Shown one piece after another: positions 41,399-47,774 of a stretch of DNA of 64,000 nucleotides. The stretch spans positions 372,001 to 436,000 of the forward strand of contig CP016093.1 in the NCBI GenBank assembly GCA_001664005.1, given 5' to 3'. Position 1 is the first letter of the stretch. Each line of letters starts with the position of its first letter. The DNA comes from Rhizobiales bacterium NRL2 (GTDB taxonomy: Bacteria; Pseudomonadota; Alphaproteobacteria; Minwuiales; Minwuiaceae). The position numbers and the translations under genes are program-made. Under the pieces are notes generated by a model that ran no database searches, was not told the DNA's origin, and saw nothing but the letters and a program-made list of their open reading frames with translations.

Positions 41399-42103
41399 AT
41401 GCGGATCGGCATTCTGGAGGCGGGACTGGTCCACGACGACCTGGTGGACGTGTACGGCGACTTTCCGGCCATGTTCCGGCGCTGGCTGACGCCGCATCTG
41501 CCGGCGGCGGACTTCCGGACCTGGTCGGTCATCCGCGGGGATTGGCCGGACGGACCCCGCGACTGCGACGCCTGGGTGCATACGGGCTCCCGCTTCGGCG
41601 TCTATGACGACGAGCCCTGGATCGCGCCGCTGAAGGATTTCATCCGCGCCGCCGCCGAAGCCGGCGTGCCGCAGCTCGGCATCTGCTTCGGCCATCAGCT
41701 CGCCGCCGAGGCCCTGGGCGGGCGGGCGGAGAAGTCGCCGAAGGGCTGGGGCGCGGGACTGCACCGCTACCGCATCGCACTGGACGGGGCGGAGCGGGAA
41801 TTTCCCATGATCGTCAGCCACCAGGACCAGGTGACCGCCGTGCCGCCGGGGGCGCGGGCGCTTGGCGGCAACGACCATTGCCCCTTCGGCGTGCTCGAAT
41901 ACCGGGACGTCCCGATCCTCACGGCCCAGTTCCATCCGGAGTTCAACCGCGCCTTCAGCGCCGCGCTGATCCGGCTCCGGGCGGGATCCTCGATCCCCGA
42001 GAGGGTGGCCGCGCCGGCGCTGGCTTCGCTGGCGACGCCGCCGGCGAACGCCGAGGCCGGGCGCTGGATGGCGGGCTGGCTGAAGGCGAAGCTGGAGGGC
42101 TGA
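41399..42103 (+). CDS. Class I glutamine amidotransferase
   Basis: Stand-alone triad glutamine amidotransferase similar to GMP synthase-type GATase domains (often annotated as gamma-glutamyl-gamma-aminobutyrate hydrolase-like), 234 aa. The catalytic triad is visible: Cys96 in LGICFGHQ, and His179 with Glu181 in QFHPEF. MRIGILEAG starts the Rossmann-like core. GGGAAG precedes ATG 41399, 14 bp after the permease stop, so these two form an operon. No synthase partner domain is fused or adjacent; substrate unknown. Confidence 0.88.
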   Translation: MRIGILEAGLVHDDLVDVYGDFPAMFRRWLTPHLPAADFRTWSVIRGDWPDGPRDCDAWVHTGSRFGVYDDEPWIAPLKDFIRAAAEAGVPQLGICFGHQLAAEALGGRAEKSPKGWGAGLHRYRIALDGAEREFPMIVSHQDQVTAVPPGARALGGNDHCPFGVLEYRDVPILTAQFHPEFNRAFSAALIRLRAGSSIPERVAAPALASLATPPANAEAGRWMAGWLKAKLEG

Positions 42104-42118
42104 GCGAGGGACGGCGTT

Positions 42119-42223
42119 CAGAAATCCTTGTCATGCCCGCCTCGTGCGGGCATCCGGGCGAAGTGTCGACTCGCGGCGCGGCCGCTCCGGACCCCCGCAC
42201 GGGGGCGGGGGTGACCCATCAGT
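42119..42223. repeat. Dispersed palindromic repeats (family C) between convergent genes
   Basis: CATGCCCGC-CTCGT-GCGGGCATCCGG and CCGGACCCCCGCACGGGGGCGGGGGTGACC repeat the arrangement at 8979-9075 with the same spacing and the shared word GCCGCTCCGGACCCCCGCAC. Lies between the amidotransferase stop and the serB stop. Confidence 0.7.
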
Positions 42224-42239
42224 GAGCAACGTCCGGCCC

Positions 42240-43100
42240 TCAAAGCCCCATGAAGCGCAGAACGGCGGTCAGGTCGGCATGGTCGATGCGCGCGTCGGCG
42301 GCCTTTGCGGTCACGGGCTTGGCGCGCCAGGCGACGCCGAGTCCGGCCTTGACGATCATGCCGAGATCGTTGGCCCCGTCGCCGATGGCGACCGCCTGCT
42401 CCGGGCCGATGCCCAGCTTCGCGCAGATCTCGTCCAGCGCCTCGATCTTGGCCTGGCGGCCCAGAATCGGCTGCGTGACCTCGCCGGTCAGCACGCCGTC
42501 CTCGAAGATCAGCGTGTTGGCGCGGTTCTCGTCGAAGCCGCAGAGTTCGGCGACGCGGCGGGTGAAGTAGGTGAAGCCGCCGGAGACCAGGGCGCAGTGC
42601 ATGCCGGCCGCGCGGCAGCCGGCGATCAGCTCCCGCGCGCCGGGGCTGAGGCGCACGCGCTCGTCGAAGCACTGCTGCAGGGCGCTTTCCTTCAGGCCTT
42701 CCATCAGGCGCACCCGCTCGGTCAGCGCGCCCTCGAAGTCGATGTCGCCGCGCATGGCCCGCTCGGTGATCGCGACCACCGCGTCGCGCACTCCGGCGAA
42801 GTCGGCCAGTTCGTCGATGCATTCGACCGTGATCATGGTCGAATCCATGTCGGCGATGAGCAGTCTCTTGTTTCCCTGCATGTCCGCCGGCTGCACGCAG
42901 ATGTCGATCGCATCGCCCTCCAGCGCGCGGTCCACCCGGTCGCGCAGCTCGGCGTGATTGTCCCAGTCGAAGCGCAGGTGCCGGACGCCGCCGGCGCCCT
43001 CTGCCATGGCGGCGGCGGGCAGTACCGCGTCCAGCGCGGTCAGCGCGTGCTCAGGGATTTCTTGACCGGGCGCGGCGACGAGCGTCAGAACCGTCTGCAT
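42240..43100 (-). CDS. serB: Phosphoserine phosphatase
   Basis: HAD-family phosphatase catalysing the last step of serine synthesis. The 286-aa product has an N-terminal ACT-like region (about 1-75) and the HAD core: DMDST with nucleophile Asp84 and acid Asp86, ALVSGGFTYF (motif II Ser), KIEALDEICA (Lys) and AIGDGANDLGMI (motif III). The start ATG (complement 43098-43100) has GGAG eight bases upstream. It overlaps by two bases with the ATG of the oppositely oriented miaA gene in the palindrome CATG. The promoter must therefore lie within miaA. Confidence 0.94.
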   Translation of the reverse strand: MQTVLTLVAAPGQEIPEHALTALDAVLPAAAMAEGAGGVRHLRFDWDNHAELRDRVDRALEGDAIDICVQPADMQGNKRLLIADMDSTMITVECIDELADFAGVRDAVVAITERAMRGDIDFEGALTERVRLMEGLKESALQQCFDERVRLSPGARELIAGCRAAGMHCALVSGGFTYFTRRVAELCGFDENRANTLIFEDGVLTGEVTQPILGRQAKIEALDEICAKLGIGPEQAVAIGDGANDLGMIVKAGLGVAWRAKPVTAKAADARIDHADLTAVLRFMGL

Positions 43101-44067
43101 GAACGAGTCTCCGGAGCGGAAGCAGGGGGGGAACGAGGCCCTGCTGATACTCGGCCCGACGGCCAGCGGCAAGTCCGCGCTGGCGCTGGCCGCCGCGCAG
43201 GATTTCGGCGGGGTCGTGATCAATGCCGATTCCATGCAGGTCTACCGCGACCTCAGGATCATTACTGCGCGGCCTGACGAGCGGGCGCTGGCCGCCGCGC
43301 CGCATCGGCTCTACGGCTTTCTCGACGCGGCGGAGATCTGTTCGGCGGTGCGCTGGGCCGAACTGGCCGCCGGGGAGGTGCGCGCCGCCCGCGCGGCGGG
43401 ACGTCTGCCCATTATCGTCGGCGGTTCCGGGCTCTATGTCCGCGCCCTGCTGGAAGGCTTCTCGCCGATCCCCGACATCGATCCTGCACACCGCAAGGCG
43501 GCGGCGGCGAAACTGGCCGAACTGGGCGGCGAGCGTTTCCGCGCCGAACTGGCCGGGGTCGACGCGGCGTCGGCGGCGCGGCTGCATGCGGGCGACAGCC
43601 AGCGGCTGATCCGCGCCTGGGAGGTCTGGCTGGGCACCGGCCGGCCGCTTTCCGAATGGCAGATGCTGCCGCCGGAGCCGCCGCCGCTGGATCCGGACCT
43701 GCTGAAGGTCGTCCTGCTGCCCGACCGGAAGATGCTCTACGAACGCTGCGACGCCCGCTTCGGCGAAATGCTGGCGCAGGGCGCCATGGCGGAGGTCCGC
43801 GCCCTGGCGGCGCGCCGCCTGGACCCGGATCTGCCCGCCATGAAGGCGCTGGGCGTGCCGCAGCTCATCGCCGCCGACCGGGGCGAGATCGGACTGGAGA
43901 CTGCCGCCGCGGAAGCCCGCACCCTGACCCGCCGCTACGCGAAGCGGCAGGTGACATGGCTCAGGCATCAGATAATTTCCGACATCACCCATGACGCGCA
44001 ACATATGGAAAGAATGAAGGCCGATATCTTTCCGAAAATAAGCGAATTCCTGTTGACCCGTTCCTGA
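43099..44067 (+). CDS. miaA: tRNA dimethylallyltransferase
   Basis: Transfers a dimethylallyl group to A37 of tRNAs reading UNN codons (i6A synthesis). The 322-aa product has the P-loop ILGPTASGKSALAL (residues 17-30), INADSMQVYRDL, the conserved TARP(D/S)ER-like TARPDERALAAAPHRLYGF, IIVGGSGLYVRALLEG and the C-terminal KRQVTWLRH. ATG 43099 is the only ATG before the P-loop. It shares two bases with the serB start codon on the other strand, and no good ribosome site precedes it, so translation may depend on a very short leader or another start codon. The likely ilvB promoter lies over its last codons. Confidence 0.93.
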   Translation: MNESPERKQGGNEALLILGPTASGKSALALAAAQDFGGVVINADSMQVYRDLRIITARPDERALAAAPHRLYGFLDAAEICSAVRWAELAAGEVRAARAAGRLPIIVGGSGLYVRALLEGFSPIPDIDPAHRKAAAAKLAELGGERFRAELAGVDAASAARLHAGDSQRLIRAWEVWLGTGRPLSEWQMLPPEPPPLDPDLLKVVLLPDRKMLYERCDARFGEMLAQGAMAEVRALAARRLDPDLPAMKALGVPQLIAADRGEIGLETAAAEARTLTRRYAKRQVTWLRHQIISDITHDAQHMERMKADIFPKISEFLLTRS

Positions 44068-44081
44068 CCCTGCCCTATGGT
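44053..44081 (+). promoter_or_regulatory. Putative sigma-70-type promoter for the ilv cluster
   Basis: TTGACC (44053-44058) and TATGGT (44076-44081) are 17 bp apart, with the -35 inside the last codons of miaA. The transcript would begin near 44088, giving a leader of about 130 nt before ilvB. Confidence 0.5.
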
Positions 44082-44132
44082 CCGCCGGCCCTCTCCGGGG
44101 GACCGGCCTTTCCGGCTGCCAGCGCGGATTTT

Positions 44133-44184
44133 CCGCCGCCGGCGGGCGGTCAATTCGCGGCCGCCCCGGCGGGGCGTTTCGTTT
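44133..44184 (+). promoter_or_regulatory. Possible transcription attenuator before ilvB
   Basis: Four segments can pair in mutually exclusive ways: CCGCC (44133-44137) with GGCGG (44145-44149); GGGCGG (44144-44149) with CCGCCC (44161-44166); or CGCCCC (44162-44167) with GGGGCG (44171-44176), the last followed by TTTCGTTT like an intrinsic terminator. This is the 1:2 / 2:3 / 3:4 logic of an amino-acid attenuator. No short Ile/Val/Leu-rich leader peptide is seen, and GC-rich DNA makes chance pairing common. Confidence 0.4.
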
Positions 44185-44219
44185 GTGAACCCGAGACGCA
44201 AGACAGATGGGACAGACCA

Positions 44220-45986
44220 ATGTCGACCAAGACGATGACCGGCGCTGAAATACTGATCAAGGCACTCGTCGATCAGGGCGTGGACACGGTATTCGGATAT
44301 CCGGGCGGCGCGGTACTACCCATCTATGATGCGCTGTTCCAGCAGAACTCCATTCGCCACATCCTGGTCCGTCAGGAGGGCGGCGCGGTGCACGCGGCCG
44401 AGGGCTATGCGCGCTCGACCGGCAAGCCGGGCGTCGTGCTCGTCACTTCCGGCCCCGGGGCGACAAATGCCGTCACCGGCCTGACCGACGCGCTGATGGA
44501 CTCCATCCCCGTCGTCTGCCTGACCGGTCAGGTGGCGACGCACATGATCGGCAACGACGCCTTCCAGGAGTGCGACACCACCGGCATCACCCGGCCCTGC
44601 ACCAAGCACAACTACCTGGTGAAATCGACGGACGACCTGGCGCGCGTGGTCCATGAGGGCTTCTATGTCGCCACCAACGGCCGTCCCGGCCCGGTGGTCA
44701 TCGACATCCCGAAGGACGTCCAGATCGACACCGGCGCCTATTCCGGCCCCGATCAGGTCAGGCACAAGTCCTACCGCCCGAAGGTCAAGGGCGATCTGGA
44801 GGCGATCCGCAAGGCGGTCGACCTGATCGCCAAGGCGGAGCGGCCGATCTTCTATACCGGCGGCGGGGTCATCAATTCGGGGCCGAAGGCGTCGATGCTG
44901 CTGACCCAGTTCGCGCGCCAGACCGGTTATCCGGTGACCTCCACGCTGATGGGGCTCGGCGCCTATCCGTCCGCGGATCCGCAGTTCCTGGGCATGCTGG
45001 GCATGCACGGGGCCTACGAAGCCAACATGGCGATGCACGACTGCGACGTCATGATCTGCGTCGGCGCGCGCTTCGACGACCGGGTGACGGGCCGCCTCGA
45101 CGCCTTCTCGCCCAATTCGAAGAAGATCCACATCGACATCGACCCCTCCTCGATCAACAAGAACGTGGCGGTCGACGTGCCGATCATCGGCGACGTGGCC
45201 CACGTGCTGGAGGACATGATGCGGGTCTGGAAGGCCGGGGCGCGTCAGGCCGACAGGAAGCGGCTGGCGCCCTGGTGGGCGGACATCGAACGCTGGCGCG
45301 GCCGCAACGGCTTCGCCTATGCGGAGACGGCGGACATCATCAAGCCGCAGCGGGCGATCCAGGCGCTCTACGAGAAGACGAAGGACCGCGATCCGATCAT
45401 CTCCACCGAGGTCGGCCAGCACCAGATGTGGGCGGCGCAGTTCTTCGGTTTCCAGCAGCCCAACCGCTGGCTCACCTCGGGCGGGCTGGGGACCATGGGC
45501 TACGGTCTGCCCGCCGCCATGGGCGCGCAGGTGGCGCATCCCGGCCGGCTCTGCATCGACATCGCCGGCGAGGCCTCGATCCTGATGAACATCCAGGAGA
45601 TGTCGACGCTGGCGCAGTACCGGCTGCCGGTGAAGATCTTCATCCTCAACAACCAGTGGATGGGGATGGTCCGCCAGTGGCAGGAACTGCTGCACGGCAA
45701 GCGCTATTCCGAGAGCTATGTCGACAGCCTGCCGGACTTCGTGAAGCTGGCCGACGCCTTCGGCGCCGTCGGGCTGATCGCCGAAAAGCCGGACGATCTG
45801 GACGGCGTCATCGACGAGATGCTGGCCGTGGACCGGCCGGTGATCGCCGACATCCGCGTGGACCGGGAGGAGAACTGCTTCCCGATGGTGCCTTCGGGCG
45901 CCGCCCACAACGAGATGATCCTGGGCAACGAGGCCAATTCGGAGGATTCGCCGAAGGTGACGGACAAGGGCTTCGCCCTGGTCTGA
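44220..45986 (+). CDS. ilvB: Acetolactate synthase, large (catalytic) subunit
   Basis: ThDP-dependent acetohydroxyacid synthase, first common step of Val, Leu and Ile synthesis; also called ilvI. The 588-aa product has the PYR-domain Glu53 in VRQEGGAVHAAEGYAR, GPGATNAVTGLTDA, FAD-binding middle domain (GARFDDRVTGRL), and the PP domain with GGLGTMGYGLPAAMGAQ. The metal-binding motif reads DIAGEASILMN, so Glu451 stands where Asp is usual, followed by NNQWMGMVRQWQ. It heads the order ilvB-ilvH-ilvC. A hairpin and T-rich run precede it, suggesting attenuation. Confidence 0.95.
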   Translation: MSTKTMTGAEILIKALVDQGVDTVFGYPGGAVLPIYDALFQQNSIRHILVRQEGGAVHAAEGYARSTGKPGVVLVTSGPGATNAVTGLTDALMDSIPVVCLTGQVATHMIGNDAFQECDTTGITRPCTKHNYLVKSTDDLARVVHEGFYVATNGRPGPVVIDIPKDVQIDTGAYSGPDQVRHKSYRPKVKGDLEAIRKAVDLIAKAERPIFYTGGGVINSGPKASMLLTQFARQTGYPVTSTLMGLGAYPSADPQFLGMLGMHGAYEANMAMHDCDVMICVGARFDDRVTGRLDAFSPNSKKIHIDIDPSSINKNVAVDVPIIGDVAHVLEDMMRVWKAGARQADRKRLAPWWADIERWRGRNGFAYAETADIIKPQRAIQALYEKTKDRDPIISTEVGQHQMWAAQFFGFQQPNRWLTSGGLGTMGYGLPAAMGAQVAHPGRLCIDIAGEASILMNIQEMSTLAQYRLPVKIFILNNQWMGMVRQWQELLHGKRYSESYVDSLPDFVKLADAFGAVGLIAEKPDDLDGVIDEMLAVDRPVIADIRVDREENCFPMVPSGAAHNEMILGNEANSEDSPKVTDKGFALV

Positions 45987-46018
45987 GCCCTTCGTCACCC
46001 CGACATTCCGAAGGAGGG

Positions 46019-46046
46019 GCGGACCTGGCCCGGCCGGGTCCGCGGG
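46019..46046 (+). other. Hairpin in the ilvB-ilvH gap
   Basis: GCGGACC and GGTCCGC form a perfect 7-bp stem around a 10-base GC loop directly before the ilvH ribosome site. It could tune ilvH translation or protect the upstream mRNA end. No T-tract follows, so it is not a terminator. Confidence 0.4.
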
Positions 46047-46050
46047 AAGC

Positions 46051-46557
46051 ATGCACGATACAGTCGAAACCCACACCATCGCCGTCCTCGTCGACAACGA
46101 GGCCGGCGTCCTGGCGCGCGTGATCGGTCTCTTTTCCGGCCGCGGCTACAACATCGAGAGCCTGACCGTCTCCGAGGTCGACCGGGAGAACAACCTCTCC
46201 CGCATCAACGTCGTCACCTCGGGCACGCCCATGGTGATCGAGCAGATCAAGGCGCAGCTCGACCGTCTGGTGCCGGTGCACCGGGTGGCCGACCTGACCG
46301 TGGACGGGGAGCACATCGAGCGCGAGCTGGCGCTGCTGAAGGTGCGCTGTTCGGGCGAGAAGCGCGTCGAGTCGCTGCGCATCGCCGACATCTTCAAGGC
46401 CAAGGCGGTGGACGCCACCGACCGCAGCTTCGTGTTCGAGATCACCGGCTCGACGAAGAAGATCGACGCCTTCGCCGACCTGATGCGGCCGCTCGGTCTG
46501 ATCGACATCAGCCGCACCGGCATCGCCGCCATCAGCCGCGGCCCGGACGAACTTTGA
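46051..46557 (+). CDS. ilvH: Acetolactate synthase, small (regulatory) subunit
   Basis: Regulatory subunit that activates the catalytic subunit and confers valine feedback inhibition. The 168-aa product has an N-terminal ACT domain, TIAVLVDNEAGVLARVIGLFSGRGYNIESLTVS (about residues 8-40), the Val-binding site region, then HRVADLT and the C-terminal ALLKVRCSGEKRVESLRIADIFKAKAVD domain. It follows ilvB after 64 bp; a hairpin lies in the gap. The gene is also known as ilvN in some species; 168 aa is closer to the IlvH length. Confidence 0.95.
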   Translation: MHDTVETHTIAVLVDNEAGVLARVIGLFSGRGYNIESLTVSEVDRENNLSRINVVTSGTPMVIEQIKAQLDRLVPVHRVADLTVDGEHIERELALLKVRCSGEKRVESLRIADIFKAKAVDATDRSFVFEITGSTKKIDAFADLMRPLGLIDISRTGIAAISRGPDEL

Positions 46558-46570
46558 GGAGCAACTGACC

Positions 46571-47774
<1,204 letters not shown>

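Follow-up and report, generated by a model that had tools for sequence, protein, structure and literature searches.

The serB and miaA genes in the stretch of DNA analysed here (64,000 nucleotides in length, hereafter called the window), which is part of a genome comprising a single contig of 4.70 Mb (4,700,671 bases), form a divergent overlapping pair, with two genuine genes overlapping at their 5' coding ends. Both start codons are contained in the tetranucleotide CATG at positions 43098-43101 (C43098, A43099, T43100, G43101), a feature without strand polarity, with the ATG of miaA located at 43099-43101 on the plus strand and the ATG of serB at 43100-43098 on the minus strand. This junction is found in all seven species of the genus examined and represents a well-supported new example of a rare arrangement that is already known. 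As to how the two genes are expressed, we favour, with a probability of about 0.52, a reading in which miaA is leaderless and transcribed from within serB, whereas serB is transcribed from within miaA, such that the two promoters face each other.

The minus-strand gene serB (42240-43100) codes for a phosphoserine phosphatase of 286 amino acids plus stop, and the plus-strand gene miaA (43099-44067) for a tRNA dimethylallyltransferase of 322 amino acids plus stop. Both products score above the curated cut-offs of their families (TIGR00338 with 222.7 bits against 144.15 for SerB; TIGR00174 with 225.1 bits against 148.65 for MiaA). Among the named genomes listed, which may omit very near relatives, Nisaea denitrificans provides the best match to MiaA (57% identity), which suggests that the DNA comes from an alphaproteobacterium. 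Downstream of miaA, the window contains ilvB, ilvN and ilvC. The initial annotation had described serB and miaA as head-to-head genes with overlapping start codons and no intergenic DNA at their 5' ends. The sequence confirms the arrangement and bears out the lack of a spacer, since bases 43099-43100 are coding in both genes.

The window's miaA reading frame opens at 43066 and offers, ahead of the P-loop, a single codon of the ATG, GTG or TTG type, namely the ATG at 43099. The fused ATG is 54, 54, 57, 57, 57, 66 and 78 nt away from the P-loop in the seven species, and all of these lengths are multiples of three, as expected if this stretch is translated in the miaA frame. An earlier suggestion that miaA may start at a non-ATG codon is not supported, because the window has neither GTG nor TTG between the upstream stop codon and the P-loop and all seven species retain the frame set by the ATG. 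The serB frame remains open further upstream in the window and includes the potential start codons TTG 43172, TTG 43223 and ATG 43235. In the congener locus L082, it opens only 12 nt ahead of the same ATG, with no start codon in between; we therefore consider the upstream extension non-conserved and rejected a start at 43235. The first SerB strand (VLTLV) begins three codons past the serB ATG. A second serB ATG, whose use would leave a gap of 4 nt, is found two codons further on in five of the seven species, but the spacing of 7-8 nt from the Shine-Dalgarno-like sequence, as judged by eye, favours the first ATG in these cases. Our start-comparison script took the second ATG in these five congeners and, as a result, printed the fused ATG as +4.

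To place the junction in its phylogenetic context, we compared nine genomes of the family, representing the seven species of the genus plus two other genera. CATG joins the two starts in each of the seven species, whereas the starts are 26-47 nt apart and the overlap is absent in the two other genera (26 or 44 nt at locus L088, depending on the choice of the serB start, and 47 nt at locus L089). Conservation of the overlap in relatives, a matter raised in the initial annotation, thus extends across the genus but not to the rest of the family sample. On a larger scale, serB and miaA are divergent neighbours at 91 of 134 loci, a proportion that does not derive from a random sample, since 80 of the loci were picked for their likeness to this MiaA and near-duplicates as well as cut contigs were included. 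After omission of 25 of the 91 adjacent loci, which could not be resolved, from the start comparison, 49 of the 59 resolved outgroup loci lacked a fusion of the miaA and serB start codons. The potential counter-evidence named earlier, relatives with separate starts, is thus half present: both of the other genera have such starts and most of these loci lack the fusion, so that the overlap is a trait of this genus rather than of the gene pair at large. Candidates for a fused ATG were detected at 10 of the 59 resolved outgroup loci, and also at L078 and L113 in the 134-locus table (the start-comparison table gives a wrong serB start for L078). A hand estimate, which considers that the serB ATG must be preceded by a C and that one frame in three is suitable, puts this frequency near chance, so that we do not claim many independent origins. 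At the Magnetovibrio loci L004 and L010, the serB and miaA ATGs also share one CATG, and a ribosome-site-like sequence precedes miaA there. The head-to-head order of serB and miaA is thus widespread and often tight, while the conserved fusion belongs to this genus.

The genes next to the junction were compared in stretches of ~20-40 kb fetched around miaA from each genome. Among the six congeners, ilvB is present in all and ilvN and ilvC in five, the stretch from the sixth beginning at a contig end. One congener (G004) matches many of the flanking window genes between 37403 and 63621 in its stretch around miaA. The matches in the other five are limited to serB, ilvB and mostly ilvN/ilvC, plus just one other tested window gene, found in G003. 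Judging from these gene contents, the serB-miaA-ilv block seems to have been kept together while its surroundings changed. Between miaA and ilvB, the window contains a G+C-rich hairpin followed by a T-rich stretch (44162-44189), which is also seen in G004; in the other five congeners, the 127 nt that follow miaA do not contain it. It could possibly act as an attenuator or terminator of ilvBNC.

Within its own genome, the arrangement stands alone in the portion surveyed. Among 158 divergent pairs identified in 1,256,000 of the 4,700,671 bases (1033 called genes), serB/miaA is the only one with overlapping starts; three other pairs are separated by 21-50 nt, and the remaining 154 are further apart. 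Genes were called with a simple codon-usage script for open reading frames of at least 60 amino acids, and the same single overlapping pair was obtained with and without Shine-Dalgarno weighting.

Five species of the genus (G001, G002, G003, G005 and G006) have another head-to-head pair that is fused through CATG. It combines a gene that we take to be LOG-like, based on its N-terminus, with one that codes for a small protein whose N-terminus is signal-like (loci L167, L168, L169, L170 and L171; also L140 8181 and L142 8896). The count covers these five species, the script having given no such start in G000 and G004. A ribosome-site-like GGAGA, as read in L170, precedes only one of the two genes. 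Use of the longest-ORF starts yielded four other pairs with a spacing of -2, among which only L140 and L142 looked genuine. Start fusion may thus recur in the genus.

The two genes of the junction differ in their ribosome sites. In the window, a Shine-Dalgarno-like GGAG (43109-43112, minus strand) lies 8 nt before the serB ATG within miaA codons 4-5, a location that follows from the lack of intergenic DNA. A comparable site is found 7-8 nt ahead of the serB ATG, again inside miaA, in all seven species, with GAGG- or AAGGG-type sequences occupying the same place in the congeners. These congener sites were identified by eye, because the script scored the second serB ATG in five congeners and printed none. 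For miaA, neither the script nor inspection of the sequences revealed a Shine-Dalgarno motif ahead of its fused start codon, and this applies to all seven species. The earlier observation of a ribosome site for serB only can thus be generalized to the whole genus sample.

The candidate promoter elements are located in the first codons of the respective opposite gene. For miaA, a potential -35 element, TTGACC, is found at 43062-43067 on the plus strand, inside serB codons 12-13 (GGT, CAA). TTGAC occurs at this position in all seven species and, in the window, is situated 37 nt before the miaA ATG, which is the spacing expected for a leaderless mRNA. The glutamine codon involved (Q13) is CAA in all seven species, even though CAA accounts for only 4-9% of the glutamine codons in the genus, and the T preceding it is kept although the corresponding amino acid is glycine in two species and arginine in five. 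A weak candidate -10 element, TCAGAA or CAGAAC (43085-43091, plus strand), lies 7-8 nt before the ATG. It is a poor match to TATAAT, and its AAC coincides with serB codon 4 (V4), which is GTT in all seven species, with GTT making up 4-10% of the valine codons in this G+C-rich genus. For serB, a potential -10 element, TATCAG (43144-43149, minus strand), faces the gene from within miaA codons 16-17 (CTG ATA). The isoleucine codon I17 is ATA in all seven species, although ATA makes up just 1-3% of isoleucine codons across the genus; of 57 outgroup loci, two have ATA at this place. At a distance of 17 nt from this -10 element, the miaA P-loop codons include a conserved candidate weak -35 element, TTGCCG (43167-43172, minus strand). 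It constitutes weak evidence, since the amino acid sequence of the P-loop largely dictates it, and TTG(A/C)C falls at the P-loop place 44 times in 57 outgroup loci (a set from which two near-duplicates were omitted). In the same set, four TTGAC motifs lie in the 20-nt bin that covers nucleotides 21-40 inside serB, compared with 0-2 in other bins, a difference that is suggestive only. The proposal of the initial annotation that each promoter resides in the coding region of the opposite gene thus gains indirect support from the conserved rare codons, whereas a sigma-70 consensus scan of positions 42900-43400 was negative for promoters on both strands.

The retention of rare codons was analysed across both genes, with a codon classified as rare at a usage of <10% and only those columns considered in which all seven species share the amino acid. 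At these columns, the window contains 22 rare codons, seven of which are identical in all seven species: V4 and Q13 in serB and I17, F311, K313, I314 and L319 in miaA. Retention thus affects 3/3 rare codons at the junction and 4/4 in the last 12 codons of miaA, compared with 0/15 elsewhere. For the junction versus the remainder (3/3 vs 0/15), we calculated a probability of 1/816 by hand, for a grouping made after seeing the data. When all miaA codons at conserved columns are considered, 10/15 are identical in all seven species at positions 1-30, 8/35 at positions 31-90 and 23/102 beyond. The codons kept at the end of miaA (F311, K313, I314 and L319) coincide with a likely ilvB promoter, TTGACC-N17-TATGGT (window positions 44053-44081), which begins within miaA, and a TTGACC-N17-TATGGT or TATGTT site before ilvB is present in all seven species. 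Although itself deduced from its motifs, this site likely provides an internal example of promoter-linked codon retention. The hexamer TTGACC, seen at the junction, thus recurs as the -35 element of the best promoter candidate nearby.

The pattern of conserved codons could alternatively reflect selection for weak 5' mRNA folding or a general 5'-end effect, with the promoters located elsewhere, an explanation that we regard as a serious but clearly less probable one. In line with this notion, all three junction rare codons have a higher A+T content than the usual synonymous choices, and the control genes ilvB, ilvN and ilvC keep 4/10 of the rare codons among their first 35 positions in every species compared. 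Further cases are found among other neighbouring genes (4-7 species compared), where rare codons identical in all species mostly number 0-3 per gene, some of them near the start. Part of the retention may therefore be a general effect. Against this explanation, all three junction codons are kept, but no other rare codon in serB or in miaA before codon 311, and the T before CAA13 persists despite the change of the encoded amino acid.

Somewhat less probable still is the possibility that miaA is translated without a Shine-Dalgarno motif from a longer mRNA, whose promoter would lie deeper in serB or upstream of it. The lack of a good -10 element ahead of the miaA ATG argues in its favour, as does the finding that genes without a detected Shine-Dalgarno motif are common in this genome (387 of the 1033 genes called in 1.256 Mb). 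However, the conserved TTGAC would then have no role, nor would the rare codons GTT4 and CAA13, and a search of the first 300 nt of serB in all seven species yielded no other plus-strand TTGAC. Tests of the leaderless reading itself gave mixed results. Genes with TTGAC 35-39 nt before their start lacked a Shine-Dalgarno motif in 4/4 cases in 456 kb of the genome, but this association was not clearly repeated in 800 kb of fresh sequence, where the motif was absent in 1/3 cases (5/7 overall); when starts were chosen without regard to the Shine-Dalgarno motif, it was absent in 2/3 cases of the fresh set (6/7 overall). In the window, the initial 45 nt of miaA show no unusual lack of structure (48th percentile, compared with the 46th to 99th in the congeners), and mRNA folding lends no clear support. 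A search of positions 42000-47000 against Rfam returned just two weak, sub-threshold and irrelevant matches. The idea that miaA may be leaderless, already put forward in the initial annotation, is therefore supported indirectly by the lack of a Shine-Dalgarno motif in all seven species and the spacing of TTGAC, while the weak -10 element and the empty sigma-70 scan speak against it.

If the junction is indeed expressed from facing promoters, the miaA promoter would be contained in the first 13 codons of serB, and its transcript would begin at or within ~2 nt of the ATG. The resulting leaderless mRNA would not need a Shine-Dalgarno motif. The serB promoter, in turn, would be located in miaA codons 16-25 and produce a leader of ~37 nt, which carries the serB Shine-Dalgarno motif within miaA codons 4-6. 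The two promoters would face each other, and the 5' ends of the two transcripts would show complementarity over ~40 nt. Facing or bidirectional promoters, with one short region transcribed from both strands, are known in bacteria. The junction resembles them in its candidate transcription from both strands, but differs in that each candidate promoter would sit among the first codons of the gene opposite to it and would serve a protein gene.

It is tempting to speculate about regulation between serB and miaA, because facing promoters and complementary 5' ends would follow from the arrangement we favour and miaA precedes ilvBNC, with ilvB retained in 6/6 and ilvN and ilvC in 5/6 congeners. A mutual antisense or transcription-interference switch connecting serine synthesis, tRNA modification and branched-chain amino acid synthesis is nevertheless improbable, given that both genes have ordinary household functions, for which a low and constant level of expression would presumably suffice. 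We consider it equally improbable that the junction is a nested unit, in which a palindromic CATG starts both genes, the promoters and the serB ribosome site occupy synonymous positions of the gene on the other strand, and polymerases that face each other, together with complementary mRNA ends, allow either serine synthesis or tRNA modification/ilvBNC to be expressed, but not both. Least credible of all is a start-codon artefact, with the true start of one gene lying elsewhere: although one survey judged all 75 divergent overlaps of >60 nt to be mispredicted starts (PMC2478687) and a second serB ATG exists in five species, the lack of another miaA start in the window, the frame kept from the ATG to the P-loop in all seven species and the Shine-Dalgarno spacing in the two-ATG species argue against it.

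Divergent overlaps have been described as the rarest overlap class, with 457 cases, or ~1% of the overlaps counted (PMC2478687). Their under-representation has been ascribed to the need for upstream regulatory elements, and an increase in such overlaps has been noted for Caulobacter (PMC2174442). Like the pairs covered by these surveys, serB and miaA lie on opposite strands and overlap at their 5' ends, but they share only two bases, have support for both starts and are kept in seven species. In the portions of the two surveys drawn on here, overlaps are treated statistically, with no single pair dissected in the way presented for serB/miaA. Leaderless mRNAs are common in alphaproteobacteria, as exemplified by 375 such mRNAs in Caulobacter (PMC4117421) and 192 transcription starts located exactly at the start codon in Bradyrhizobium (PMC4842269). 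In common with these mapped mRNAs, miaA lacks a Shine-Dalgarno motif and has a candidate promoter aimed at its ATG; unlike theirs, its transcript start is a prediction from sequence, and the candidate promoter would lie inside another gene. Searches of an open-access paper library yielded no description of the serB/miaA pair or of the mechanism considered here.

The rarity of divergent genes with overlapping starts has been attributed to the requirement of every gene for signals ahead of its start. The serB/miaA pair provides a clean and conserved example, in which these signals have seemingly been packed into the opposite gene and are legible as rare synonymous codons. It represents a natural test of how transcription and leaderless translation operate with no space between genes.
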